Shown here: positions 10,268 through 30,340 of the stretch, piece by piece
Layout of the letters: each line of letters starts with the position of its first letter
Numbering within the stretch: the stretch's first letter is position 1
Virus record (IMG/VR): IMGVR_UViG_3300017776_000099
Location: 1-30,340 of that record
Direction: 5' to 3' (one strand)
DNA from: a virus
DNA: 30,340 nt
Notes under the pieces: model-generated
Seen by the model: the letters and a program-made list of their open reading frames with translations, nothing else
Databases searched by the model: none
Told to the model about the DNA's origin: nothing
Translations under genes and position numbers: made by a program

Positions 10268-10622
10268 TAAATGTAGAGTAAAGAAGGATGAAGAAGAGTT
10301 CCCTATGGAAAGTGGTAGGGGTTACCGAAAGACCACTTGTAGATTATGTATTTGGTCTGTAAAGAAAGTACGTGATAACTTACGTAAAGAGGTAGAGCCA
10401 CCACCTGATGATTACCAATGCCCTATATGCCTGAGGAATGCTGAAGAAGCTGCAGGATGTGGAGGTGTAAACAAATCACCTTGGGCTTTAGACCATGACC
10501 ATTTAACCAGTAAGTTTAGAGGGTGGATATGCCACTCATGTAACAGGACGTTAGGTGGGCTGAAGGATGACTTCGGTGCACTAGATAGAATCAGAAATTA
10601 TTTAAAGAAGGGCAGAGAATGA
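10248..10622 (+). CDS. Recombination endonuclease VII-like (His-Me finger) nuclease
   Basis: A 124-residue protein with the endonuclease VII core LDHDHLTSKFRGWICHSCN (81-99), including the DHDH catalytic segment (82-85) and Asn99, as in T4 endonuclease VII. The structural zinc site is formed by Cys58, Cys61, Cys95 and Cys98. A second CxxC pair set at the N-terminus (Cys6/Cys9, Cys31/Cys34) adds another zinc finger, common in phage relatives. The enzyme resolves branched DNA such as Holliday junctions and replication intermediates before packaging, and so could replace the T7 endonuclease I role. GGAG at 10234-10237 precedes the start; the stop overlaps the reductase start (ATGA). Confidence 0.88.
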   Translation: MGLKTCNKCRVKKDEEEFPMESGRGYRKTTCRLCIWSVKKVRDNLRKEVEPPPDDYQCPICLRNAEEAAGCGGVNKSPWALDHDHLTSKFRGWICHSCNRTLGGLKDDFGALDRIRNYLKKGRE

Positions 10623-12472
10623 ACACATCTAACAAAATCTTATCCGATATAACAGTCTTCAGCAAGTATGCAAAGTATATCCCTGAGCTAGAACGTAGAG
10701 AAACTTGGGATGAATTGGTAACAAGAAACAAAGAAATGCACCAACGTAAGTACCCTAAGTTTGCAGAAGAGATTGAGACTGCTTATCAATTTGTATACGA
10801 TAAGAAAGTGTTACCGTCTATGAGAGCCTTGCAGTTTGGTGGGGCACCTATTGAGCTAGCTCCTAATCGTATTTACAACTGTGCTTACCTGCCAGTAGAA
10901 AGCCCAGAAGCTTTTGCAGAGACTATGTTCTTACTGCTAGGTGGTACTGGTGTAGGCTACTCAGTGCAACGGCATCATACCCGTAAGCTTCCAGAAGTAA
11001 CAGGGCCTAAGAAACGTAAGCGTAGGTTCCTAGTCTCTGATAACATTGAGGGTTGGGCTGATGCTGTAAAGGTCCTATGTGAATCTTACTTTAATAACAC
11101 CATGGATGTAGAGTTTGATTACCGTGACATCCGACCTAAGGGTGCTATGCTTATCACTACTGGTGGTAAAGCTCCCGGACCTCAGCCTCTTAAGGATTGT
11201 ATCCACAACCTAAGATCTATCTTTGATCAAGCTATTGGTCGTCAGCTATTAACTATTGAAGTGCATGACATGATGTGCTATATTGCTGATGCAGTATTGA
11301 CTGGTGGTATTCGTAGGGCAGCTATGATTTCTTTGTTCTCTATGGATGACAATGATATGCTGGCATGTAAGGCTGGTAACTGGTGGGAGAACAACCCGCA
11401 ACGTGCAAGGTCTAACAACTCTGCAGTTATGGTACGCCACCGCATTACCAAAGAAGCCTTTGAGAAACTATGGAAACGAGTAGAGTTGTCTGGCTCTGGT
11501 GAGCCCGGTATCTACTTCACTAATGATAAGGACTGGGGTACTAACCCTTGCTGTGAGATTGGCCTACGTCCCTATCAAATGTGTAACCTTACGGAACTTA
11601 ACGCATCTAACATTGTCTCACAAGAAGACCTGAATGAACGTGCCAGAGCAGCATCACTAATCGGTACACTACAAGCAGGTTATACAGACTTTCATTACCT
11701 TAGACCTGAGTGGCAAGAGACTTGTCAACGTGATGCCCTTATCGGTGTAGGACAGACAGGTATCGGATCAGGAAGGGTATTGAACTATGACTTGGAAGAA
11801 GCTGCGTTGGAAGTTGTCAACGAAAACAAAAGAGTTGCTAAAGAACTGGGAATCAACTCGGCTGCAAGATGCACTACAGTTAAGCCTAGTGGTACTAGCT
11901 CTTGTGTTCTTGGTAGTAGTAGCGGTATACATGCTTGGCATAATGATTACTATATTCGTCGTCAGAGGGTTGGAAAGAATGAGGCCCTATACCAGTACTT
12001 TGCAGAGCACCATCCAGAGCTGGTGGAAGACGAGTACTTCAACCCTACGGAGCAAGCTGTAATTGAGATACCACAAGAAGCACCTAAGGGTTCTATACTT
12101 AGAACTGAAAGCCCTGTACAACTACTGGATCGTGTACGAAAGTATAACGTAGAGTGGGTAGCACCGGGGCATATCGAAGGTCAGAACTCTCACAACGTAT
12201 CATGCACTATCTCATTGAAGGATGATGAGTGGGAGCTTGGTGGTGAGTGGATGTGGAAGAACCGTTATACCTTTAATGGTATTGCTGTGCTACCATACAA
12301 CGGTGGTACCTATGTGCAAGCACCCTTTGAGGATATCTCTGAGGAACGCTATCGTATCATGGAGTCTGCCCTAAGTAACATCGATCTAACTCAAGTGAAA
12401 GAAGTAGAGGATACAACAGATCTGTCAGGTGAAGCAGCCTGTGCTGGTGGAGCGTGTGAGATAACGTTCTAA
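10619..12472 (+). CDS. nrdJ: Adenosylcobalamin-dependent (class II) ribonucleotide reductase, monomeric type
   Basis: A 617-residue enzyme reducing ribonucleotides to deoxyribonucleotides. Key residues align with the Lactobacillus RTPR type: Cys88 in YNCAYL (first redox cysteine), NPCCE at 309-313 giving the thiyl cysteine Cys311 and catalytic Glu313, and Cys322 in MCNLTELN, which is 11 residues after Cys311 as in RTPR. The C-terminal shuttle pair is CAGGAC (Cys608, Cys613). It needs adenosylcobalamin but no oxygen and no separate radical subunit, so the host must make or import B12. It is somewhat shorter than the 739-residue RTPR. The neighbouring redoxin is a plausible reductant. It starts inside the endonuclease VII stop (ATGA). 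Confidence 0.93.
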   Translation: MNTSNKILSDITVFSKYAKYIPELERRETWDELVTRNKEMHQRKYPKFAEEIETAYQFVYDKKVLPSMRALQFGGAPIELAPNRIYNCAYLPVESPEAFAETMFLLLGGTGVGYSVQRHHTRKLPEVTGPKKRKRRFLVSDNIEGWADAVKVLCESYFNNTMDVEFDYRDIRPKGAMLITTGGKAPGPQPLKDCIHNLRSIFDQAIGRQLLTIEVHDMMCYIADAVLTGGIRRAAMISLFSMDDNDMLACKAGNWWENNPQRARSNNSAVMVRHRITKEAFEKLWKRVELSGSGEPGIYFTNDKDWGTNPCCEIGLRPYQMCNLTELNASNIVSQEDLNERARAASLIGTLQAGYTDFHYLRPEWQETCQRDALIGVGQTGIGSGRVLNYDLEEAALEVVNENKRVAKELGINSAARCTTVKPSGTSSCVLGSSSGIHAWHNDYYIRRQRVGKNEALYQYFAEHHPELVEDEYFNPTEQAVIEIPQEAPKGSILRTESPVQLLDRVRKYNVEWVAPGHIEGQNSHNVSCTISLKDDEWELGGEWMWKNRYTFNGIAVLPYNGGTYVQAPFEDISEERYRIMESALSNIDLTQVKEVEDTTDLSGEAACAGGACEITF

Positions 12473-17464: not shown

Positions 17465-19561
17465 ATGGCTGGAGCTATACATGCAGTAGCAGAGTATATA
17501 AGAAGCAACAGAGAAGGTGCCCGGGGTAGGAATCACTCGGGCATCGAACTCTTAAACAGACATATGGACTATGGCTTAAAGTATGAAGAGCTTGTCATAT
17601 GTGCAGTACAAGCAGCCCAGAGTACGTTCCTTAGATCCCGTAATACTAGCAGTAAAAGCTTTAAACTAACAGCCACATCGACAGCCATAGGGTTAGCAGT
17701 GCTATCTCGTATGGGTATTAAGAATAGTTCTTACACAGAACTGTTTGCAGTAGGTGATCTGTTTATTGAAGCACTACTAAAGCTAAAGTACGTGGAGGTA
17801 GAGAGGGAGTACGAAGGCTATCGTGCACCATATGTTATATTCTTAACAGAAAACTGGGAAGACTTAGGTGAAATCCCTGAGGACTTTGAGAGAGCTACAC
17901 TAACTGGTACTAGCTTCCGAAGATTCCCGAAGATAACAGGGTTGAGGAACCCTATAACTAAGAGGCCGTATATCAAACGTATGACCTCTGAGAGAGACTT
18001 TAGCCAATGCCTTGACCAACCCTTTGTCAAAGCGTTAGACAAGCTACAGGGCGTTGCATGGCGGCTTAACGTGGACATCGTAAAGGCCCTTAGAAATAAC
18101 GTTAGTAAGTTCATAGATATGGACGATAAGTCTGACAAGGCTAGGTCTAAGCGTATTGAAATGAAGTTCATCCTCAACAAAGCAAGAGCTATTGGAAGTG
18201 AAACCTTTTACCAAGCAGTTGAGTGTGACTATAGGGGTAGGGTGTATTACACTGAGCCCTTTCTAAACTACCAAGGGTCCGACTTATCCAAAGGTTTGTT
18301 TGAGTTTAGTAACAGTAAACCTATGGATGACCGAGGGTTCTTTTGGTTATGTGTGCACACTGCTTGTTCATACAATCAAGATTACACAGTAGAGGAGCTA
18401 GATAACTTAACATGGTTAACCGAAGACTACAAGCATCACTTAGCAGAAGAAGACTTGGATACTATTTCAGTAGACAAAATGACACTAGAAGACAGGGCGT
18501 TGTGGACGATCAACAACAAGGAAGCCTTGATCAAAGATGCAGTAGAGATGAAGTTCAGGACAGAAGCAGAGAAGCCAATAACACTACTGGCATGCTGTCT
18601 TGATCTTAAGGGTTACGTAGAGGCCGAGGGAGTCTATCAATCAAGACTACCCATACCTGTAGACGGGAGTAACAATGGATGGCAGCATTTGGCTGCGATG
18701 TCTAAGGACAGTGAAGCAGGTGAGTTGGTCTCAATTGTTCCTCAAAGTATACAAAAGGACTTTTATGTACAGGTTGCGAAACGTTTGATAGGCAGAATGC
18801 CTGAGTGGTTTGATGGTAGAAACATACCAATGAAAGCCATTAGGAAAGGTATAGCTAAACGTGGGTCAATGACTAGGGCATATTCAGCAGGTCAAAAGAA
18901 GATTGCAGAGAATATGTTTTATGACTGTAAGACAGAGGGGTATCATAAGAAGTACAGGATAAGTAAAGATGATTGCGATAAGCTATCTAAGAATCTAATC
19001 CTTGCTATTAATGATACATGTGTAGGTCCCCTAAAGACCATGAAGTTTCTCCAAAAGATTACAGACTATGTACTAGAGAGTGGAGAGACATGCTTGCAGT
19101 GGACTACACCGTCAGGTTTCCCAGTGTTATACGAAGTGTGGAAGCAAAAGAACCTGACACTAAGAAGTACCATAGGTGGCCTAGGGCAGATAGGACATAG
19201 CATAAAGATACCTGTAATAACTAAAGAAGGTAATGCTATACCTTGCCGAAGGTCTTTTGCATCAGGCTGTTCACCAAACTTTGTACACTCTATGGATGCA
19301 GCACACATGGCTAAGGTTATCGAGTCATTCCCCGGGAGCTTTGGGGCAGTACATGATTCGTTCTCAACCCATGCGTGTGAGGTAGACAAGTTACTAGAGC
19401 ATACTAAGTGGCAGTTCGCTATGATGTACAACGTGGATAACTTCTTTGATCGAATAGAATCATTGCTCCTTGAGGGCCGTGAGGGTTACGCAGTAAAACA
19501 ACCAGAGATAGGTGATCTTAAAATAGAAGAAGTCATAAGTTCTGACTATTTCTTTTCTTAA
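17465..19561 (+). CDS. Single-subunit T7-like DNA-directed RNA polymerase
   Basis: A 698-residue phage RNA polymerase. Family elements in order: DYRGRVY (Asp255-Arg259), motif A PVDGSNNGWQH with catalytic Asp400, motif B from Arg459 to Tyr473 (Lys465 and Tyr473 spaced as in T7 Lys631 and Tyr639), SPNFVHSMD at 603-611, and motif C VHDSF with Asp631. The C-terminus YFFS echoes the aromatic end of T7 polymerase (FAFA). It is about 185 residues shorter than T7's, with losses in the N-terminal domain and between motifs A and C. The glycine after the motif B tyrosine is Ser474. AGGAG at 17455-17459 supports ATG 17465. It should transcribe middle or late phage genes. Confidence 0.95.
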   Translation: MAGAIHAVAEYIRSNREGARGRNHSGIELLNRHMDYGLKYEELVICAVQAAQSTFLRSRNTSSKSFKLTATSTAIGLAVLSRMGIKNSSYTELFAVGDLFIEALLKLKYVEVEREYEGYRAPYVIFLTENWEDLGEIPEDFERATLTGTSFRRFPKITGLRNPITKRPYIKRMTSERDFSQCLDQPFVKALDKLQGVAWRLNVDIVKALRNNVSKFIDMDDKSDKARSKRIEMKFILNKARAIGSETFYQAVECDYRGRVYYTEPFLNYQGSDLSKGLFEFSNSKPMDDRGFFWLCVHTACSYNQDYTVEELDNLTWLTEDYKHHLAEEDLDTISVDKMTLEDRALWTINNKEALIKDAVEMKFRTEAEKPITLLACCLDLKGYVEAEGVYQSRLPIPVDGSNNGWQHLAAMSKDSEAGELVSIVPQSIQKDFYVQVAKRLIGRMPEWFDGRNIPMKAIRKGIAKRGSMTRAYSAGQKKIAENMFYDCKTEGYHKKYRISKDDCDKLSKNLILAINDTCVGPLKTMKFLQKITDYVLESGETCLQWTTPSGFPVLYEVWKQKNLTLRSTIGGLGQIGHSIKIPVITKEGNAIPCRRSFASGCSPNFVHSMDAAHMAKVIESFPGSFGAVHDSFSTHACEVDKLLEHTKWQFAMMYNVDNFFDRIESLLLEGREGYAVKQPEIGDLKIEEVISSDYFFS

Positions 19562-20475: not shown

Positions 20476-23400
20476 TTATGAATCTAATACTGTTTTTGCT
20501 GTATCGGGTATACCAATGTCATCCATAGAGTACTGTAGGACTTCATGTCCATAGGCTTCCTTGTCAGCATTAACTTTCTTCCTGACTTCAGCTCTACCTT
20601 CTTTAGACTTTTTAGCTAATCCAGATAACTCTCTAGCTGTACGACTAAATGCCTCGGTCTCAAGAAATACTTGAGCGTAATGAAGTGATATATAGTTTCT
20701 TGATTTATTTGTCTGTGCTCCTTGATCAGAGTAATTAGCAGAAAGGTTTTCAATCATACCCTGTGCTAGCTTAGTATTCTCTGCGTCAAAAGAAGTGTAC
20801 TTTAGTACATTTATAATATGATCTGCAAGGGCTCCATGCTCCTGCTCATCAATTATACCTCCTTCTTGGGCTAAATCACCAAACACTTGCCTACCTTGTC
20901 TAACCTTTTTATTTAAACCTTCTACCATTTCATCAATGATAGTAGATTCACTTGTCATGTTAAACCATTGGTTATTTATAACAGAGCTTAACTTACCCAT
21001 TGACCTAAGGTCTGTAATAACAGCATCATAGACTGGGAGAACCCATGCATCTCCATTAGCTGTCTTATTCAAAGCATCCCAAGCAGGGCCGCTAAAGGTC
21101 TTAACTATAGCAGCACCATCAATACCTTGGGCAATGTTAGGAAGTACAGAGCCATGAGCAACACCACCAGTGATGCCCCTTCGTGAAGCTAACGGACTAA
21201 GAAAAGACTTCTTCTCCTCTACCCTCATAGGTCTTGGAGATTTAGTTTCTTTAATAAGAGTATTGTACCTCTTAGCCTCCTCAAGATTACCTTCAGCTTC
21301 AGCCTTAGCTTTTTGTTTTTCTAAAGCTTTTATTAAAGGCTTAGCTCTACCAGTGTCTTTGTCTCTGCGAGATGTTGCTTTAAGGTCAGTGGAACGTCCT
21401 GTTCTACGAGTTTCCTTACCAACAAACATAGACTCACCGCCTGCTGGGTTTTGTATAGACAGGAACTGATTATAAATACCAGCTAAGTCAACAGCTTCTT
21501 TACTTAAACGAGAGAAAGCCATTACATCGTTACCAAGAGTTGCTTTCAAGGCTTGCATCCTAATAGCGTCTAAGAAACTAGCACCCTTAGGTAACCCACC
21601 TTCACCAAAGAATCCTAAGATTTCTGCGTAAAGCTCAGGATCCCCTACAATAGTTTCGTAGATAGAACCAATTAGGTTTTTAGTTTCTTGACCATACGGG
21701 AAGGTTAGTATAGGAGCTTTAAGGAAAGTTGATTTGTTTTCTTTCTTGAGTGCTATCTCTAGTATTTCTCTAAGCTTAGGTATATCTGCTTCCGTATAAC
21801 CAAACTGTTCCATAATGTTCTTATCAAACATAGCCAAAGAAGACACTTCGTTACTCATGTTTAACCTAAGAGTTTCTGATAAAGTCCTACGAATATCCCC
21901 TGCGTAAGCCTCTGGAATAGTCAAAGCATTAGGTAAGTCTTTCCACATACCAAGTACTTCTTCAGAACCTTCAGCTCTAGTAACACCTATACGGGGTAGT
22001 TTATCGTACTGCCCTAGCATAACAAAGAAGCTAGAGAGCCCGTTAGATATACCATCAATCTCTACTCCATTTACAGAAGTATGGAAAGATGTACCATCTC
22101 GCATTGCTTGATCGTACTCAGACATAGCCATAAGATAATCTAAGTACTGTATTGCATGCTTGTGAGAGTCTTTAGACTCACCTATAGCTGTTAAAAAACC
22201 CATGAGTTCTTTATCATCTAACATAGCTTGCGGCAATGTACCCGTTAAACCTTCAAGGCCTTTAATGCCCTGAGGAGTAGAAGTGACTTGTCCTAAAGAA
22301 GCTACAGCACCGTCTTTGTCAAACATATTTAAGTACCCTTTTAGCCTACCACCCATTTTAACAATAGACTGGTATCTTGGAGTCTTATTCTTTATATGAA
22401 ACAAAGCATTTTTAACTGCTGTCTCTTTAACCTTACCACCACCGTCAAAGAAAATAGTGCTAGCTGACCATAAGAAGTTATCTTCTATCTCCCCGCCTCT
22501 CATAGGTTTAATCTCAACCTTAGCGCCAGACCCAATAGCATTCCGCATTAAGTGGCTGTTCTGAAAAGACAAGTACTGAGCAGTGGTTAGGCGAGTGCTA
22601 CCCTTCTGAGTTACATATGTATGGTAGAAAGGTTTGTCTCCGTTTCTGGCAATAAAGCTTAGGGTCTCTAAGTTCTTATTAGCATGTTGATAGTACAAGG
22701 CTTGGAGTTCGTTAGTGCCCCCTTCAAGAGGTGCACCTAACTTGTACTTTTCTTTAAGACTTTCCCTAAATTGAACTTCACCTTCAAGTTGAGATAACTT
22801 AATACTATCACCTACAGTTAATTCAGATTTAGATTTTAGGCTATCAATCTTAGATTGAGCAACTTGCATCTTAACATCTTGAGCCCTAGCAATAGATGTA
22901 ATTTTATTCATCCTATTAGAACCCATATCCATCATATTAAGAGTAAAGTTTGCTGACTCTAAGTTACCTTCTGGTTGCTTAACAGCAGTAGCGTAAGCGT
23001 GTACACCTAGCATTAGAGCTAAGGATCCCCGTCTACTGTCAATAACATTAGTAACATTACTAGCATTTACCTTAGCTTCAGCTAACGCTTTAGACTTAGG
23101 GCTAGGGATAACACCTGTTTCAGTTTTTAACAAGACACCCTCAAAAGGTATTGTACCTTTGTAGGGCTTTAAGGTAAGAAACTTAGCTTTAAAGTCAGGG
23201 ACCCTTACCCTTGACTCTTGAAGTTGAAGATAACCTTCAGGTGACAAAGCGTAAGATCTTGCAATGCCTTCACCTGTGCTTGTGTCGTAATTACCATCTA
23301 CTACAGTAACCATATGTGGAGCTAAAGTAGAATAGTAATCTAACATCATATCACCAATAGCTTCAAAAGTTTCTGGTGTAGTAGCCTGAAAGTCTTCCAT

Positions 23401-24459
23401 GTAGGTATCAGTAGGTTCACCAGCTAGGTATGCTTTTTCCCTGCGTACCGCTTGGAATAAAGACCTCCCTAATGAAGCTTTACCTGCTTGTTCCCTGTAA
23501 ACTTCAGCAGCTGTCGGGTCAACAGAATCTACGTCTATAGGTGGCTGATCCATCTCATTTGCAGAAGCAGCATCAGTATCCCTTTGAGTTGATACTAGCA
23601 TATCTTCTACAACTGCAGCTATAGTAGGTAAGTACTTTCTGTCTAAAACAAAAGGCTGTTGATTAGCTTCTTCGTAGTTAACCACTTTACCTTCTTCATT
23701 AAGTTTAATGGCAGTAGGGTCAAAGTTAGGGTTCTTCATACCAATACCAAGAACTTTATTTGATAGTAATATGTTAGACCTGTTAAGTTTTAAAGGAGCG
23801 CCTTTAGTGCTTACACGTAATGGTCTTTGACCTTTATCTTCTACATCAAAAGCTTCTTTATCTAGTATCTCAAGTCCTTCTTGAAACCCGGGATCTGATA
23901 CTTCTAATGCAGAGTCAAACTGAATTGCATCTGTAACGTCCATAGTAACAGGGTGAGCATACTCAGCAACAGTAGCCATACCTCTAAATCGATTATAGTT
24001 CGCATCACCAACCTGTTCGTGTAGATTTGAAAGATCCCTAGCAACCCCTGCGGCTTCCATGACAGAAGGTACTCTGATGTTCTCACGCTCTAGTTGTTGC
24101 TCAGGGGTTAACGCAAACTTTTCTTGGTTTTCTTGTGATACTTCTTGAGCCATAGGTTGTAGCTGTGGTTGCTCTTGCACCTCAGGGCTAGGTTCAGGTT
24201 GTGCTTGTGCAGCTAACTGAGATTCCTGAGGAGTAACCTGTATGTTTCTAAGGCCTTCTGCAATAGATTCAGATGGAAGTGCAATGGGTGGGCCGTCCTG
24301 TGGCCCTGTATCTTGTCCCTCTAATCCTAAAGTACCAGCTGTTTCTGCTTGGCCTAGCAAATCTGCTCTGATACTAGCTACCTTTGCCTCTTGAGCTGCT
24401 GCTTTTTCTTCATCTGTAAGTGGCGCTACTTGACCTGATAGTCTTGGACCTTTAGCCAT
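20476..24459 (-). CDS. Probable virion-packaged RNA polymerase (N4 vRNAP-like), 1327 aa
   Basis: A 1327-residue protein, last of the - strand set, downstream of the lysozyme-nuclease protein. I read it as a divergent single-subunit RNA polymerase because motifs fall in the right order. These are TQKGSTR near 617-623 then FQNSHLMR (632-639), recalling the TxxGR region; motif A VEIDGISNGLSS with Asp802 (T7 spacing DGxxxG); motif B FLKAPILTFPYG with Lys914 and Tyr922 (Kx7YG, as T7 Lys631/Tyr639 and N4 vRNAP); and motif C LPVYDAV with Asp1145. The arginine four residues before the motif B lysine is Ser910, and HD is YD. The first 120 residues are Gln/Pro/Glu-rich and probably flexible. N4 vRNAP (about 3500 residues) is injected to transcribe early genes. 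A structural-only protein is the alternative. Its start shares one base with the upstream stop. Confidence 0.72.
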   Translation of the reverse strand: MAKGPRLSGQVAPLTDEEKAAAQEAKVASIRADLLGQAETAGTLGLEGQDTGPQDGPPIALPSESIAEGLRNIQVTPQESQLAAQAQPEPSPEVQEQPQLQPMAQEVSQENQEKFALTPEQQLERENIRVPSVMEAAGVARDLSNLHEQVGDANYNRFRGMATVAEYAHPVTMDVTDAIQFDSALEVSDPGFQEGLEILDKEAFDVEDKGQRPLRVSTKGAPLKLNRSNILLSNKVLGIGMKNPNFDPTAIKLNEEGKVVNYEEANQQPFVLDRKYLPTIAAVVEDMLVSTQRDTDAASANEMDQPPIDVDSVDPTAAEVYREQAGKASLGRSLFQAVRREKAYLAGEPTDTYMEDFQATTPETFEAIGDMMLDYYSTLAPHMVTVVDGNYDTSTGEGIARSYALSPEGYLQLQESRVRVPDFKAKFLTLKPYKGTIPFEGVLLKTETGVIPSPKSKALAEAKVNASNVTNVIDSRRGSLALMLGVHAYATAVKQPEGNLESANFTLNMMDMGSNRMNKITSIARAQDVKMQVAQSKIDSLKSKSELTVGDSIKLSQLEGEVQFRESLKEKYKLGAPLEGGTNELQALYYQHANKNLETLSFIARNGDKPFYHTYVTQKGSTRLTTAQYLSFQNSHLMRNAIGSGAKVEIKPMRGGEIEDNFLWSASTIFFDGGGKVKETAVKNALFHIKNKTPRYQSIVKMGGRLKGYLNMFDKDGAVASLGQVTSTPQGIKGLEGLTGTLPQAMLDDKELMGFLTAIGESKDSHKHAIQYLDYLMAMSEYDQAMRDGTSFHTSVNGVEIDGISNGLSSFFVMLGQYDKLPRIGVTRAEGSEEVLGMWKDLPNALTIPEAYAGDIRRTLSETLRLNMSNEVSSLAMFDKNIMEQFGYTEADIPKLREILEIALKKENKSTFLKAPILTFPYGQETKNLIGSIYETIVGDPELYAEILGFFGEGGLPKGASFLDAIRMQALKATLGNDVMAFSRLSKEAVDLAGIYNQFLSIQNPAGGESMFVGKETRRTGRSTDLKATSRRDKDTGRAKPLIKALEKQKAKAEAEGNLEEAKRYNTLIKETKSPRPMRVEEKKSFLSPLASRRGITGGVAHGSVLPNIAQGIDGAAIVKTFSGPAWDALNKTANGDAWVLPVYDAVITDLRSMGKLSSVINNQWFNMTSESTIIDEMVEGLNKKVRQGRQVFGDLAQEGGIIDEQEHGALADHIINVLKYTSFDAENTKLAQGMIENLSANYSDQGAQTNKSRNYISLHYAQVFLETEAFSRTARELSGLAKKSKEGRAEVRKKVNADKEAYGHEVLQYSMDDIGIPDTAKTVLDS

Positions 24460-27400
24460 TATTTATCTCCTATTATCCAATTGTTCTGGACTAGTTCATC
24501 GTATATTCTGTGTTTAAGTGGTGAGAAAGGTGTCAAAGATAAGCCAGACTTAAGAGTCTTTCTTGTATCTTCCTCTAACGCACCCTTACCTAATCCATAT
24601 ATGTTTTCAACAATATTAGAAGCAGGGGCTTCTCCAGCTACTAAGTTCCAAGTGGACTCAACTACGCCTCTACTTCTGTTTTCGTATAAAGGAAATAAAT
24701 AGTTATTACTAATTACCCTTTCAGTTACCCCTAAGAGTCCTGAAGAATACAGGGCCCGTAGGTATTTCTCATTATCTGATAAGTAAGGTGATCCCTTTCC
24801 AAACTTAATAAGGTCTTTAAGGTACTGAGCAGCATAACCAAGCATAAGCATAGAAGCCATAGAAGCAAACATGGAATACTTCATTCCGGGAGTTGCCTTA
24901 CTAATAGTCTTGTACATTCTTGGTATGTGCACTGCTGTAAACTGAGATATAAAACCTTGAAACTGCATGAACATTGCAAAGTGTGGGTCACTATAGATCA
25001 ATGGTCTAGTCATAGCAGAAGGCATAGGTACCGCACCGTTAACAAAGTTAAGTAAGCCATTATCAAACTGTCTTTCCCATTGAGCAAGTATGTCCTTATT
25101 CTCAGGGTCAGCTTGTAGCTTATTAGACAAGTCAATCATAGTGTCTACTGGTATCCCAAACTCCTCAAGCATCTGACGAGCTTCAACTACTTCATTGGTC
25201 TGAACAAGACCTGCAGAGTGTATCTTATCTAAGTTGCTTATTAAGAAGTCATTAAAGAATGCAGCACGTAGTGTACGAGTAGCATTAGTTACGCTAGTTA
25301 AACCAATAATCTTAAAGAAGTTATCCATAAGGCTTTTAGTAAACTCACTAGTTTCAGATACACCAACTAGTGTTGCCTGACCTGTTTTCTGCTGAAGCAT
25401 ACCAATACGTTTCAAGAGTCCCCGGGGGTCCTCAATACCAACGTAACGTGCATCAGCACCTATCCTACCTTTACGAGACTTAATTGCAGTATCAAAGGTA
25501 CTACGCTTAGGTGCAAGACCAGTCATCCTACCAACTTCTGCAAAGTACTCAAACATTTCCCTGCCAAGTATCATACCTAGAGAGCCTATGTTTTTATTAA
25601 GTGCTTGTACATTAACGTTCATAGGTGTCAATGCAAACTCAACAAGGGACATAGGGGCCGCTAGGGGTAGCATAGTGAGTACACCAACTACCGTCATAAA
25701 CTTCTGAGCACCTCTTATCGACTCGTTCTCAATACGTCTGTAGTTACCTGAGTCAGCGTTAACAAGATCCCTTACATTCATCGCAAGATCTTCAACAATC
25801 TCTTGTGCATTAGGGTCACCCTTAGCACTCAGCTCATTGTAGACTTTAGTTAAAAGCTGATCCATCAGTTTATTGTTCTTACCTAGGTACTTCAGGGATG
25901 CCATGTATCTTGCAGAACCTTTCATGTTTTGCTCAAGGTTATCAAAGATATTATTCTGCAAGAAGCCATCAAAGGCTTTACTATCTGCAATGTCTAATGA
26001 TCTACGCTTAAAACCTGCAGGGTATAGCCCACCCCTAGTCAAATCAAATGCGTCCTCTAATGAGTTAGCATCTGGGTTATCTAGTATGGTGTCAGTGACT
26101 GCTTCCGCATTCTCTTTGCTAAGACCTTTCTCACTTTGCAGTAAAGAAATAAACCTTTGTTTATCTGCAGCTATCTTCTCTTTCAAGAAAGCTTTACTTC
26201 TGAAGATGTGATCCTGAAGCTTACCTATCAGGGGCTCACTAGTCTGCTGTTGCCTAGCTGTTATGTTTCTCCACATCATGTCATCGACAGTATAGAGATC
26301 CGTAACTACTTCCTTAAGAGCAGCAGAGTTAGCACTATATGCAGGGGGTAAATTATCCCAATCAATAGCTGCTATAACCTGTGCACCAGTCATATGCTCT
26401 TTATTCCCCTTACCCTTTTTCTTGGTAATAGGCATAATGATAGACCTATGGAAATCGTAAAGCAAAGCAGATACCTGCTCTCTCTTTCTTCCGTAACGAG
26501 AGGAGTCAGTAGTAAACTTATTTAGTATCTGGTCTATGGTACCGCCAGTAAGTGCACCTTCAAATGCAGTGTAACTTGCAACCTTATCAGATGTAAAAGT
26601 AAGGCCTCTTTGTACTGCGTTCTTAGTACCTCCAAGCATAGAGTATATTAGTCTAGCGGAAGGGCTCTTACCAAGAAGCTCCGTATCCATACGGGTATCT
26701 AGTGCAGTTCGTAATGCAGCTACAGGGTCCTTAAACATATCAGCTAATTTGTCTGACTTAGGTACAGCACTCCTACGCTCTGAACCTTTATCTGCAAGAT
26801 CTTCAAGCGACTGAGACACTGCACTGCCTTGCCTCATTATGTCGTATTGCTCTTCCTGAGTTAAGTTTGTAAAGTCTTCAGGTAAAGCTTGGGTATCCCT
26901 GCTTAAAGGTTCACCTTCTCTTTTGCTAACCTCTTTCCACTCGGCTTCAAGTGCTTCATCAAGGTCTCTTACTTTACCGTGAGTATTAACCTCTTCTTCT
27001 CTCCAAGAGTTAGCAGCTTCTTCGTACCGTTGATCATACTCTGACATAGCAACACTAGCGTCTTTCCATGCACCAGCTTCCCATACAGTTCCGGGAGCAG
27101 CAAAACCAGCACCCATAAGTCCACCAGCAATTGCAGCGTTAGTCAGTCTGTCTTGTAACTCATCAAAGTTCCAAGTTTTCTCTGACCCCATAACTACTGC
27201 AGTATATTGGGTAAGTTCCTGAAGCATCTCTGTGCTTCCCTCAAATGCTGCACCAGCTGTAAGACCTTTAGTAAACTGTTTAAGCAGTACACTCTTACGC
27301 AACTGTTGATCTACTTTCTCTTTGACACCTGCAGATAACCCAGCTATCTCACGCTTACTGCTTCTTGAAAGGGCAAGCTCAGCTTGGCTCCTAGTTAGTA

Positions 27401-29189
27401 CGCCTGTAGTAGCTGAATCACCTGCTTCCTTACCTAGTACAGATATGATACGTTGTAGTGATTCACCTTTAGCATTTTGAACAGCTTGAATAGCAGCATC
27501 CTTAGCCTCCCCAGTCATAAACTGAGAGGGTTTAATAAGACCTAAAGCACCTTTAAGACCAAAGACATCCAAGGATGCAGCGATAGCACCACCTGCAATA
27601 GCAGCAGTGTAGCTTTTATCTTCAAGCTCTCCGGGCATCTCATCAATGATAAGACCAGTGTACATCATTACAGGTGTAGAATAAGCAGCAGCTCCTACTA
27701 AACTAGCAGCACCTGCAAGCCCTCCAGTTAACAAAGCAGCAGCAGTGACACCCATAAAGGGTAAAGACATTGCAAGGTTAGCACCTAGGTACTCAGATAC
27801 CTCGTCTAAGCTAGTCCAGTCTACATCTTTGTAGTCTAAACGTACCTTAGGCATGTCTTTCAATCTGCTTTTACTGTAGTCAACCCGACCTTGCATGTAA
27901 GCTTCAGCTTCATCAAAGCCAGCTACGTCTAATCCCATAGAAGCTACTTGAAAGAAAGAGTTTCTAACCATTTCCAAAGCGTTATCAAAGGATTGAGAGT
28001 AGGGAACCTTAGATCTGTTATCAAATGTAGCATTCTTGTTACGTAACACCACACCTGAGAACAACTCAGGCATCAAAGCAAACTCTGCTTCGTTAAAAGC
28101 TAACTGTTTTGCTACGAATTGACCATTAGTAGGGGCATACTCTGCTGCTTTTATCATTTCAGCAGCTAATTCTATGTCAGTCTTAGGTTTTTTAGGGTCT
28201 CTAATAGCCCTTTCACCCATATTATAGACATAACGAGAGTATTCCTCCTCAGACATGGTTTCTTTTGACTTACCAATAAAGGTAGGCTTAGCAATACCAG
28301 CAGCAATAAGGAAATCTTTACCAGAGTTACCCTTATCATCTACAAAATCACCAATCTTTCTTTCATAACCAGCATCTTTATCAGTTAGCACAGGATTTGT
28401 AAAGCCATACTTGTTAAAGAGAGTGGATACCATACTCTTAGTTACTTCCCCACCCCCTTCACCACGTATAAAACCTTTATCCCGTAGTAACTTACTAGTC
28501 TCAGCTAAGTCAATACCGTCAAAACGATACTTTTCTCCGGTTTCTTTATTCTTAAAGGTGTCTCCATCTATAAGAGCAAAGCCTGAGGTTCCGATATTGA
28601 AATCGGTTTTAAAGGGAGCAGCCTCAGGTACTGCTTCACCCTTTACTGTTTCTCCAGAAGCAAACATAGAGACTGCATCGGAAACCCTTTGCATTCGTTT
28701 ATGAACTCCACTGTTAGCTTTTTTAGATTCCCTATACTCATCGTGATCTAAGAACTCTTGGGCAGCAGTATTATAGAAACCTTGATTAAATAACTTAAGG
28801 AACGTAGGGGATTGACCTAAGTCTCCCCTGTACTCTGCCTGTATTAGCTCTGCTTGTAGGTTATCTGGTAACTCTTGGAGATTAGGTATTCGTTGTTGAG
28901 TCCTGTCAACGTGATGTTGGAAAGCAGCTTCAAAGCCTTTCTCAATCCACTCACCTGTCTGCCCTACTCCTTGGGTAAGAACACCTTTAGTGTCTAAGTA
29001 AGGTGTAGCAACGTACCCTTCTTCCTCGACAACCCTTTGCTCAGCAAAAGTTAAGGGCCTCCCGAGGTTTTCGGATACCTTTGCTACAGCATCAGCCCCA
29101 TGGAATACTTTCTTTTCCGTAGGGGCCTCTGTGGTCGAGCCGGTTTCTAACTCTTCTTCGTCTTGGTTTTGATTTATAATGTCACTCAT
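24459..29189 (-). CDS. Internal/ejected virion protein with lysozyme and SNase-like domains, 1576 aa
   Basis: A 1576-residue multi-domain virion protein. Residues about 45-175 form a T4-type lysozyme (GH24) domain: Glu57, Asp66 and Thr72 have exactly the T4 spacing (11/20/26), with GVG at 74-76. Residues about 200-305 resemble staphylococcal nuclease: DGDT at 208-211, YRFDGIDLAE giving Arg222, Asp227 and Glu230 (nuclease Arg35, Asp40, Glu43), and Arg277 near the Arg87 position. Several hydrophobic stretches follow (about 468-515, 526-552, 640-710, 1165-1195, 1440-1460), suited to membrane insertion. By analogy with T7 gp16 it would be ejected to open peptidoglycan and form a DNA channel. AGGAG precedes the ATG. 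Confidence 0.82.
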   Translation of the reverse strand: MSDIINQNQDEEELETGSTTEAPTEKKVFHGADAVAKVSENLGRPLTFAEQRVVEEEGYVATPYLDTKGVLTQGVGQTGEWIEKGFEAAFQHHVDRTQQRIPNLQELPDNLQAELIQAEYRGDLGQSPTFLKLFNQGFYNTAAQEFLDHDEYRESKKANSGVHKRMQRVSDAVSMFASGETVKGEAVPEAAPFKTDFNIGTSGFALIDGDTFKNKETGEKYRFDGIDLAETSKLLRDKGFIRGEGGGEVTKSMVSTLFNKYGFTNPVLTDKDAGYERKIGDFVDDKGNSGKDFLIAAGIAKPTFIGKSKETMSEEEYSRYVYNMGERAIRDPKKPKTDIELAAEMIKAAEYAPTNGQFVAKQLAFNEAEFALMPELFSGVVLRNKNATFDNRSKVPYSQSFDNALEMVRNSFFQVASMGLDVAGFDEAEAYMQGRVDYSKSRLKDMPKVRLDYKDVDWTSLDEVSEYLGANLAMSLPFMGVTAAALLTGGLAGAASLVGAAAYSTPVMMYTGLIIDEMPGELEDKSYTAAIAGGAIAASLDVFGLKGALGLIKPSQFMTGEAKDAAIQAVQNAKGESLQRIISVLGKEAGDSATTGVLTRSQAELALSRSSKREIAGLSAGVKEKVDQQLRKSVLLKQFTKGLTAGAAFEGSTEMLQELTQYTAVVMGSEKTWNFDELQDRLTNAAIAGGLMGAGFAAPGTVWEAGAWKDASVAMSEYDQRYEEAANSWREEEVNTHGKVRDLDEALEAEWKEVSKREGEPLSRDTQALPEDFTNLTQEEQYDIMRQGSAVSQSLEDLADKGSERRSAVPKSDKLADMFKDPVAALRTALDTRMDTELLGKSPSARLIYSMLGGTKNAVQRGLTFTSDKVASYTAFEGALTGGTIDQILNKFTTDSSRYGRKREQVSALLYDFHRSIIMPITKKKGKGNKEHMTGAQVIAAIDWDNLPPAYSANSAALKEVVTDLYTVDDMMWRNITARQQQTSEPLIGKLQDHIFRSKAFLKEKIAADKQRFISLLQSEKGLSKENAEAVTDTILDNPDANSLEDAFDLTRGGLYPAGFKRRSLDIADSKAFDGFLQNNIFDNLEQNMKGSARYMASLKYLGKNNKLMDQLLTKVYNELSAKGDPNAQEIVEDLAMNVRDLVNADSGNYRRIENESIRGAQKFMTVVGVLTMLPLAAPMSLVEFALTPMNVNVQALNKNIGSLGMILGREMFEYFAEVGRMTGLAPKRSTFDTAIKSRKGRIGADARYVGIEDPRGLLKRIGMLQQKTGQATLVGVSETSEFTKSLMDNFFKIIGLTSVTNATRTLRAAFFNDFLISNLDKIHSAGLVQTNEVVEARQMLEEFGIPVDTMIDLSNKLQADPENKDILAQWERQFDNGLLNFVNGAVPMPSAMTRPLIYSDPHFAMFMQFQGFISQFTAVHIPRMYKTISKATPGMKYSMFASMASMLMLGYAAQYLKDLIKFGKGSPYLSDNEKYLRALYSSGLLGVTERVISNNYLFPLYENRSRGVVESTWNLVAGEAPASNIVENIYGLGKGALEEDTRKTLKSGLSLTPFSPLKHRIYDELVQNNWIIGDK

Positions 29190-29215: not shown

Positions 29216-30340
29216 TTATTTTTTAAGTTCAGCCATTAACTCTGCTATATCCTCATTGTCTGAAGCAAATGATTTTTCAACAAAAGCAAAGAACGGAGAT
29301 ACAAACTTAGACTTAACACCTTTACTAAATGAATCTTTAGACAATCCATTCATTCTGCTTTGGAAGCCTTTTTCATTAATGACTTTCTTACCATAGATAT
29401 CAGCCATCTTAGATAAAATAATTGGGGTACTTAATCCTAAGTCTTTAGCATAAGGGCTGTTTTCAATACCATTCATTATCATAGAAAGAGCATTGTTACC
29501 AACTTGCGCTTCTCCCTTTTCATCTGCAGGTATCTTAAAGTAAGGCTGAGGTATTCCGTTTGATGTTAAATCAAGCTTCATACGTTGAGCATCAAGGAAT
29601 CCAACTAAGTCTTTACTATCGACAGTCTGACCACTTTCAAAGGATTTAAGCCACTCTCTAATACCATTAACAGACGCTTGTTTAACAAACTCATCATTAG
29701 GGTCTACACCTGCTGGTAAGGTTGATAAGAATGTCATCAAAGGTTCTGATAGAATATTTGGATCAGTTGCAGCTTGCATCTGTGCAACTAAATCATCCAA
29801 CTGCTTAGACTCCATAGAAGAGTTACGGTTTTTTATTTGACCTATAACAGCAGTAGCCCTGTCTTGTGCAAACTGGAGGTACTTATCTTGAAGTTCAGCC
29901 ATAGTTTTACCAGCTTGAGGTTTAAACCTACCATCATCAAAAGTCCTTAGCTTAGATAAGTCAATAGGTTGCCCTGCTTCTACCCCAAAGACTGATGAGT
30001 TATCTGGGTAAAACAATGTACCATCTTTACTAGTTGAGCCTGTAAGATTAGTTTTAGTTTGACTATCATACACAGTAAACACTTTAGTAGGGTCTACCCT
30101 TTTATCTAGAATTAGTTTGGCTTGCTTTTCACCATAAAGTTTTTCTAATTCACGATCAGCTTTAGCTTGAGCAGCTTGCTTTTTCCATTCATTCTCAAGA
30201 ACAGCAGAGGCTAGGGTTACTCCATCATAGCCTAAGACTCTTGAGGCAGTGTAAGCAAATAAAGCTCTACGTAAAGACGGATCTTCAAACCCTTCTTTAG
30301 CAATGTCTTTAATGCCGTTCCATAGGCCTTTAAGGAATCC
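29216..30340 (-). CDS. Probable internal virion protein, 5' end beyond window
   Basis: The frame ending at 29216 stays open to the right edge of the window, so the gene continues beyond it. A GTG at 30080-30082 is internal, because the upstream codons read as normal protein (for example GFLKGLWNGIKDIAKEGFED at the edge). About 375 residues are visible. They are helical and charged, with long Ala/Gln/Lys-rich stretches (ENEWKKQAAQAKADRELEK) typical of internal core proteins. No enzymatic motif is seen. It lies 26 bases upstream of the lysozyme-nuclease protein in the same direction, consistent with an ejection-protein operon. The role is inferred from position and size. Confidence 0.72.
   Translation of the reverse strand, partial: GFLKGLWNGIKDIAKEGFEDPSLRRALFAYTASRVLGYDGVTLASAVLENEWKKQAAQAKADRELEKLYGEKQAKLILDKRVDPTKVFTVYDSQTKTNLTGSTSKDGTLFYPDNSSVFGVEAGQPIDLSKLRTFDDGRFKPQAGKTMAELQDKYLQFAQDRATAVIGQIKNRNSSMESKQLDDLVAQMQAATDPNILSEPLMTFLSTLPAGVDPNDEFVKQASVNGIREWLKSFESGQTVDSKDLVGFLDAQRMKLDLTSNGIPQPYFKIPADEKGEAQVGNNALSMIMNGIENSPYAKDLGLSTPIILSKMADIYGKKVINEKGFQSRMNGLSKDSFSKGVKSKFVSPFFAFVEKSFASDNEDIAELMAELKK

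Follow-up and report, generated by a model that had tools for sequence, protein, structure and literature searches.

The small RNA polymerase gene

The stretch analysed here, called the window below, is a 30,340-base IMG/VR virus record (IMGVR_UViG_3300017776_000099). Its minus strand carries an open reading frame (ORF) at 20476-24459 that begins with ATG, has 0 internal stops, and encodes a protein of 1327 amino acids (aa). From sequence profiles and a predicted structure, this protein is identified as a single-subunit RNA polymerase (RNAP) of the N4 virion RNA polymerase (vRNAP) type, and it is referred to here as the small RNAP. The gene and its catalytic blocks are as follows.

20476-24459, minus strand: small virion-type RNA polymerase gene, 1327 aa; from the ORF, a 28-member family, hhalign comparison and the predicted structure
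24079-24459, minus strand: N-terminal low-complexity stretch rich in Q, A, E and P, residues 1-127; from composition
22543-22608, minus strand: palm block with R623 and R639; invariant in 28/28 members, aligned with N4 and T7
22039-22065, minus strand: motif A, VE800xD802GxxxG; D in 28/28, E in 26/28
21688-21726, minus strand: motif B / O helix, F912-L-K914-x-P-x-x-T919-x-x-Y922-G923-Q; K, P, T, Y and G in 28/28
21010-21036, minus strand: motif C, [IV][YF]D1145[AE]...D1150; both Asp invariant in 28/28

Catalytic motifs

A previous sequence-only reading of the window had assigned DG802-803xxxG, K914x7Y922G923 and YD1145AV to polymerase motifs A, B and C and had placed them inside a large structural gene. 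All three motifs were found in the claimed order and at the claimed residues. The gene that carries them is a different matter, being a dedicated gene that encodes essentially the N4 mini-vRNAP domain alone. Motif A of the window protein reads EIDGISNG and fits ExDGxxxG, the motif A signature of Schitoviridae vRNAPs (PMC10654107). This signature is present in 26 of the 28 family members, and the remaining two carry A at the E position. The Lys/Tyr spacing of motif B is shared with N4 (KNPLTITIYG), as the same reading had held, and with Vibrio JA-1 (KNPLMTSIYG). In the palm block, R623 corresponds to T7 R425 and N4 R424, R639 corresponds to N4 R440, and the 16-residue spacing between the two Arg is the same in N4. 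The Tyr before the motif C Asp had been regarded as a notable departure from HD; it is ordinary, because the giant vRNAPs of Schitoviridae carry FD, YD or HD there (KIFDG in N4).

The replacement of the usual motif B Arg by Ser, also pointed out earlier, is real and extends to the whole small family. Four residues before the motif B Lys (K-4), the three-way alignment has Ser in the window protein and mostly A, D, S or K across the family. The Arg at this position (N4 R666) is present in 14/14 giant vRNAPs compared, and Lys stands there in 19/20 T7-type rows. N4 R666 lies outside the published core catalytic set (PMC2784036). The T7-type rows with Lys at the T7 R627 position come mostly from the lineage of the window phage; the residue here is therefore variable in at least two branches of the superfamily.

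Taken alone, the three motifs are weak to moderate evidence, because a loose three-part pattern occurred in 66 of 20,000 residue-shuffled versions of the 1327-aa protein. The stricter pattern ExDGxxxG ... KxPx5YG ... [HYF]D occurred in 0/20,000 shuffles. That the motifs arose by chance in some internal virion protein unrelated to polymerases could draw on that ~0.3% rate, but this reading is already refuted, with a probability close to nil, by the family-wide invariance, an hhalign E of 1e-16 and a structural Z of ~19. What makes the motifs decisive is that the catalytic residues are invariant in 28 members down to ~20% identity.

A family of relatives

The window protein by itself has no match in Pfam, PHROG 414/2206, PDB sequences or INPHARED (tblastn), the best PHROG result being one hit at E=0.04, and a search of viral contigs with patterns made from the window alone found nothing. 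The family was first reached through the loci of relatives of two neighbouring genes, a T7-like RNAP gene and the upstream ejection gene, both described below. Approximately 40 of the fetched loci hold a homologue of the 1327-aa protein adjoining the RNAP or ejection gene. An alignment of these first homologues was used to reach further relatives, giving 28 non-redundant members of 1155-1344 aa that are 20-75% identical to the window protein. Residues R623, R639, D802, G803, K914, P916, T919, Y922, G923, D1145 and D1150 are invariant among them. The ratio of nonsynonymous to synonymous substitution rates (dN/dS) against the nearest relative is 0.18/0.86, or ~0.21. No relevant match to the family profile was found among PDB sequences, and 0/19 members match Pfam RNA_pol (PF00940) at E<=0.1. 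Searches of a phage collection with the window protein and four members of other clades found no cultured relatives, and none of the family was found in the cellular genomes and prophages searched.

These data bear on whether the fold has been kept in a catalytically dead protein that serves solely as an ejection or internal structural protein. The gene adjoins those of ejection proteins and is Cys-free like them, and the motif B Arg is lost. However, all the other catalytic residues are invariant at only 20% identity, which is unexpected for a dead enzyme, and the dN/dS of ~0.21 also argues against loss of function. A dead enzyme is thus considered unlikely.

Relationship to N4 vRNAP and T7-type RNA polymerases

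In hhalign, the small family and a profile of 14 Schitoviridae vRNAPs match at Prob 98.8 and E=1.1e-16; the match covers 473 columns and brings all four catalytic blocks into register. The match to a diverse T7-type profile is weaker (E=2.5e-6), and the vRNAP and T7-type profiles match each other at E=4.5e-10. Against the small family, neither the ejection-protein control profile nor that of DNA polymerase reaches significance. Comparisons with single sequences (N4, CRP-7 and the window RNAP) were uninformative, and hhalign became informative once both sides were profiles. A DNA polymerase A identity was also considered and shows no profile relation, though this is a weak control because the T7-type profile misses DNA polymerase A too.

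Family hidden Markov models (HMMs) point the same way. PHROG 2206, 'virion RNA polymerase', matches individual members with E down to 2.3e-7, and PHROG 414, 'RNA polymerase', matches individual members with E down to 8.7e-7 in one search and 6.3e-8 for the best member in another. Run genome-wide, PHROG 2206 singles out the small RNAP gene in 6/8 genomes of relatives, and none of the 14 control genomes gives a match (0/14).

The catalytic set of N4 vRNAP is R424, D559, K670, Y678 and D951 (PMC2784036). This set is complete in the small RNAP as R623, D802, K914, Y922 and D1145, which are aligned with it and invariant in 28/28 members; the numbering was checked on the N4 sequence. In the three-way alignment the columns of T7 R425, D537, K631, Y639 and D812 are likewise matched in 28/28. 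The R639 column (N4 R440) has R in 14/14 giant vRNAPs and K in 19/20 T7-type rows, and ExDGxxxG, KxPxxT and R639 are common to the small family and the giant vRNAPs. In a tree, the small family, the giant vRNAPs and the T7-type RNAPs each form one clade (100/99, 100/99 and 100/100, respectively). The tree is silent on which two groups are sisters, because it contains three groups and no outgroup. Profile-profile comparison, the vRNAP family HMMs and the predicted structure together bear out the polymerase identity, the motif assignment and the relation to N4 vRNAP that had been proposed from the letters of the window.

Predicted structure

Residues 128-1327 were modelled with AlphaFold2, leaving out the low-complexity N-terminus. 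The model has a predicted local distance difference test (pLDDT) score of 79.1 and a predicted template modelling (pTM) score of 0.73. The top Foldseek matches are T7 RNAP and N4 mini-vRNAP, with E ~5e-12. VIA-align superposes the model on N4 mini-vRNAP (3c46_A) with Z 19.1 over 740 residues at a root-mean-square deviation of 6.5 and ~13% identity. The alignment spans model residues 23-1187 and chain residues 89-1064, and nearly the whole of mini-vRNAP is therefore present. Superposition on the mini-vRNAP, T7 and mitochondrial enzymes thus recovers the polymerase fold that the sequence-only reading had predicted. The model assigns D802 (model 675) to a short strand and K914-Y922 to a helix, and it puts D1145 (model 1018) at a beta-hairpin turn. 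The proximity of D802 and D1145 is implied by the superposition only.

The Z values for T7 RNAP (19.1) and yeast mitochondrial RNAP (19.3) are tied with that for N4, values less than 1 apart being counted as ties, so the fold alone cannot choose between the N4 and T7 types. Because these structures match as well as N4 vRNAP does, the protein might be taken for an ordinary T7-type phage RNAP that stands in the late region by happenstance. Enzymes of the T7 type are synthesised early inside the cell and do not enter the virion. The small RNAP shares with them (PF00940) the single-subunit polymerase fold and the catalytic residues, but it differs in its lack of a Pfam match (0/19 members), its weaker profile relation, its freedom from Cys and its place in a late operon. 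The profile score to vRNAP is far above that to the T7 type, ExDGxxxG, KxPxxT and R639 are held in common with vRNAP, and a true T7-type RNAP is encoded separately in the same genome. An ordinary T7-type enzyme is very unlikely on this evidence.

Compact architecture

Giant Schitoviridae vRNAPs are 2842-3820 aa long (PMC10654107), in contrast to the 1155-1344 aa of the small RNAP. The description of the window protein as a much smaller relative of N4 vRNAP is accurate, its 1327 aa being about one-third of the giant size. The giant enzyme starts with a lipid-binding N-terminal domain (NTD), which is followed by a low-complexity linker of ~100 residues, the RNAP proper (1007-2101) and, last, a C-terminal domain (CTD) that is autoinhibitory (PMC12633501). 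The small RNAP consists of the mini-vRNAP module (PDB 2PO4, 3C46, 9PNQ) and an N-terminal low-complexity linker, with no fused NTD or CTD. Residues 1-127 are the probable counterpart of the ~100-residue linker between the N4 NTD and RNAP.

A fused metallopeptidase (HExxH) is a feature of N4-like vRNAPs (PMC5512222). The HExxH motif occurs in 9/9 giant vRNAPs at ~1960-2400 and in none of the 28 small RNAP members (0/28) or the ejection proteins. No counterpart was found of the autoinhibitory, peptidase-bearing N4 CTD, and a giant-vRNAP CTD profile had no match in the relatives' loci. The small RNAP and the N4/Schitoviridae vRNAPs share the fold across the mini-vRNAP domain, the catalytic residues and their spacing, ExDGxxxG, KxP and the lack of Cys, and they differ in the motif B Arg (N4 R666), which the small RNAP does not have.

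The upstream ejection gene

The gene upstream of the small RNAP encodes an ejection protein with two segments that resemble parts of giant vRNAPs.

24459-29189, minus strand: upstream ejection protein, 1576 aa, 0 Cys; 1-nt overlap with the RNAP gene (TAATG)
28581-29108, minus strand: lysozyme-like domain of the ejection protein; homologous to the giant vRNAP N-terminus of Vibrio phage 1.026.O
27066-27314, minus strand: EGxxExxQ segment of the ejection protein; like N4 vRNAP NTD ~351-452, hhalign E=4e-4

The TAATG junction of the two genes has an AGGAG ribosome-binding site. The genes are adjacent and on the same strand in 76/76 locus entries that contain both, a count in which some contigs were fetched repeatedly. 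The C-terminal part of the 1576-aa protein matches PHROG 6958, 'virion structural protein'. Between its lysozyme-like domain and residues 4-180 of the 1.026.O giant vRNAP, identity is 44% across 182 aa (E=5e-35). The homology of this domain extends to the N-termini of some giant vRNAPs (Vibrio Nahantvirus) and to small endolysin or internal-protein genes of Alteromonas Foturvirus phages. A giant-vRNAP NTD profile matches only the ejection family within the relatives' loci (E 2e-6 to 5e-5), and positions 351-424 of PHROG 2206 match the ejection protein in one relative (E=5.9e-7).

Through the lysozyme-like, EGxxExxQ and RNAP matches, the adjacent genes correspond in order to parts of the NTD and RNAP of the giant enzyme. 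The two genes may thus be a split (or pre-fusion) form of a giant vRNAP, although the similarity is partial: the lysozyme domain is of a mobile kind, and the second segment is short. The roles of the N4 NTD at the membrane and in ejection would probably be supplied by the separate 1576-aa ejection protein.

A truncated ORF at 29216-30340 of the window is Cys-free and occupies the same position as an 875-aa protein of a relative, of which it is probably the counterpart. The 875-aa protein (L046 7347-9974 = G001 40718-43345) is itself Cys-free, has no PHROG match and is encoded just upstream of the ejection protein. It is probably another internal or ejection protein.

Late operon, cysteine content and probable packaging

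The window itself contains only the ejection-type protein and the truncated ORF upstream of the RNAP gene, so the claim that the gene lies among virion genes is partly visible there. It is confirmed by the late operon of a 54-kb relative, which encodes the terminase large subunit (TerL), portal, scaffold, major capsid protein (MCP), tail fibre, a DNA-ejection protein, the 875-aa protein, a 1579-aa ejection protein and, last, the small RNAP. The N4 vRNAP gene also stands last in its late operon, where it is convergent with replication genes and has ejection genes beside it.

Lack of Cys is a recognised hallmark of injected vRNAPs (PMC2784036, PMC3715699). The small RNAP has 0 Cys in the 1327 aa of the window protein and 0 in 26/28 members, with 1 in each of the other two. 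Cys is also absent from 21/21 ejection proteins and 9/9 giant vRNAPs. In the same phages the T7-like RNAPs have 13-17 Cys and the DNA polymerases have 6-12. At the Cys rate of the T7-like RNAP, the probability of finding 0 Cys in 1327 residues is ~3e-12. The absence of Cys is not a mere property of the operon, because several other late proteins (portal and MCP among them) contain Cys.

Packaging and injection, which had been put forward by analogy with N4, are well supported, though not proven, by the operon position, the Cys absence and the ejection neighbour. From these features the small RNAP appears to be packaged and injected, and the Cys pattern is the strongest support for this short of proteomics. 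Operon position and Cys absence are nevertheless circumstantial evidence of packaging, and the protein could instead be an active RNAP that is made late and transcribes late genes inside the cell without entering the virion. Against this stand the 13-17 Cys of the same phages' T7-like RNAP, while near-zero Cys across 1150-1340 residues fits proteins that cross the periplasm. Moreover, the ejection gene adjoins the RNAP gene in every locus holding both, and packaging is established for the giant vRNAPs, to which the small RNAP is closest (PMC3715699). An unpackaged enzyme is accordingly rated as quite unlikely.

A second polymerase and the proposed transcription programme

The window also encodes the T7-like enzyme through whose relatives the family was reached.

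17465-19561, plus strand: canonical T7-like RNA polymerase, 698 aa, convergent with the vRNAP gene; Pfam RNA_pol E=7e-51

This protein matches PHROG 414 with E=3e-107, has 14 Cys and is ~185 aa shorter than the T7 enzyme. Its closest annotated relative is that of Roseobacter phage CRP-7 (32%). Because it is encoded separately, the phage has two single-subunit RNAPs.

The reading we prefer, to which we give a probability of roughly 0.87, is that the 1327-aa protein is a small free-standing vRNAP that is made late, packaged, injected and used to transcribe the early genes, with the T7-like RNAP serving later genes. The small RNAP would be made late and packaged together with the ejection proteins. 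Upon infection, it would be injected ahead of or with the DNA, threaded through the tail, and refolded in the cytoplasm. There it would transcribe the early genes without host RNAP, so that the replication proteins and the T7-like RNAP are produced. The separate T7-like RNAP would then take over and transcribe the later genes.

Several points weigh against this proposal. Packaging and activity are predictions drawn from sequence and modelled structure. The single window sequence matches neither Pfam, PHROG 414/2206 nor PDB sequences, and the motif B Arg at K-4 is not conserved in the family. Hairpins with 3-nt loops that precede the first early gene in one relative lack a conserved counterpart in another, and promoters of the N4 type, which are small hairpins recognised on ssDNA, were not established in the relatives searched.

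The window does not include the region upstream of the first early gene, and promoters were sought in the relatives' genomes, where N4-type hairpins with 3-nt loops are not enriched genome-wide over those with 4-6-nt loops. In the 54-kb relative (L138/G001), the first early gene (~35028-35513 in window orientation) appears by eye to encode a protein like the T7 gp2.5-type single-stranded DNA-binding protein. It is preceded by a hairpin with a 7-bp stem and a 3-nt loop, TACACTAACCTAGTGTA, which is not conserved in the second relative, G002. By contrast, both genomes share the block CTAGTGTAATT..AACCAAG, a possible promoter or operator. In the replication region of the window, a compact 617-aa ribonucleotide reductase of the B12-dependent type is encoded at 10619-12472 on the plus strand.

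Lineage and implications

The portal of the 54-kb relative belongs to N4's PHROG 1216 (2e-71). Its MCP and TerL fall into PHROG 1328 and PHROG 2, respectively, versus PHROG 1357 and PHROG 38 in N4. The lineage therefore does not look like plain Schitoviridae, because this relative shares the portal family of N4 but not its MCP and TerL families; the window itself does not carry these three hallmark genes.

A candidate for a similar protein in a cultured phage is CRP-7 gp33 (QBQ72826.1, 'hypothetical protein', MK613349 17859-21566 = L113). Like the small RNAP gene, gp33 is the last late gene and is convergent with a T7-like RNAP gene, and its product has 1235 aa and 0 Cys. Its segments QKGTTR, EADARQSNAG, YARGLVVAGLYG and VAIHDALITG resemble the R block and motifs A, B and C, respectively. 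Homology is not supported, since sequence comparisons with the family fall short of statistical significance, and gp33 is a positional lead only. In describing CRP-7, its authors remarked on the T7-like RNAP alone and saw no synteny to known phages (PMC6918029).

Iyer et al. (2017) found N4-like vRNAPs only in N4-like phages and prophages, almost always fused to a peptidase (PMC5512222). The RNAP of the Poorviridae phage vB_PunP_Y3 (ORF30) is reported to be an N4-type vRNAP outside Schitoviridae (PMC11654794). For StenR_269, the assignment of a putative vRNAP was based solely on size, helix content and the absence of Cys (PMC10747016). The metagenome survey of Ma et al. (2023) discarded vRNAP-like proteins of <2500 aa (PMC10654107), and the small RNAP family is what such filters would miss. 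No description of a stand-alone vRNAP of this size was found in the literature, of which coverage was incomplete, so that priority is unproven. What appears to be new is a small stand-alone vRNAP from phages that seem to lie outside the classical Schitoviridae.

The split arrangement offers a counterpart for the origin of the giant vRNAP. It is on balance probable that a widespread marine lineage injects a stand-alone vRNAP within a two-polymerase programme, and that the giant enzyme arose by later fusion (or the small one by fission here). A natural vRNAP of ~1,200-1,300 residues would allow direct tests of which sections of the giant enzyme packaging and injection require. It is also a polymerase for biochemistry that is compact by nature and free of Cys. 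Absence of Cys together with the family profile offers a simple way to find more injected polymerases that are annotated as hypothetical proteins. For phage biology, the family suggests that transcription by a pre-packaged enzyme extends beyond the N4 family and needs no giant protein.

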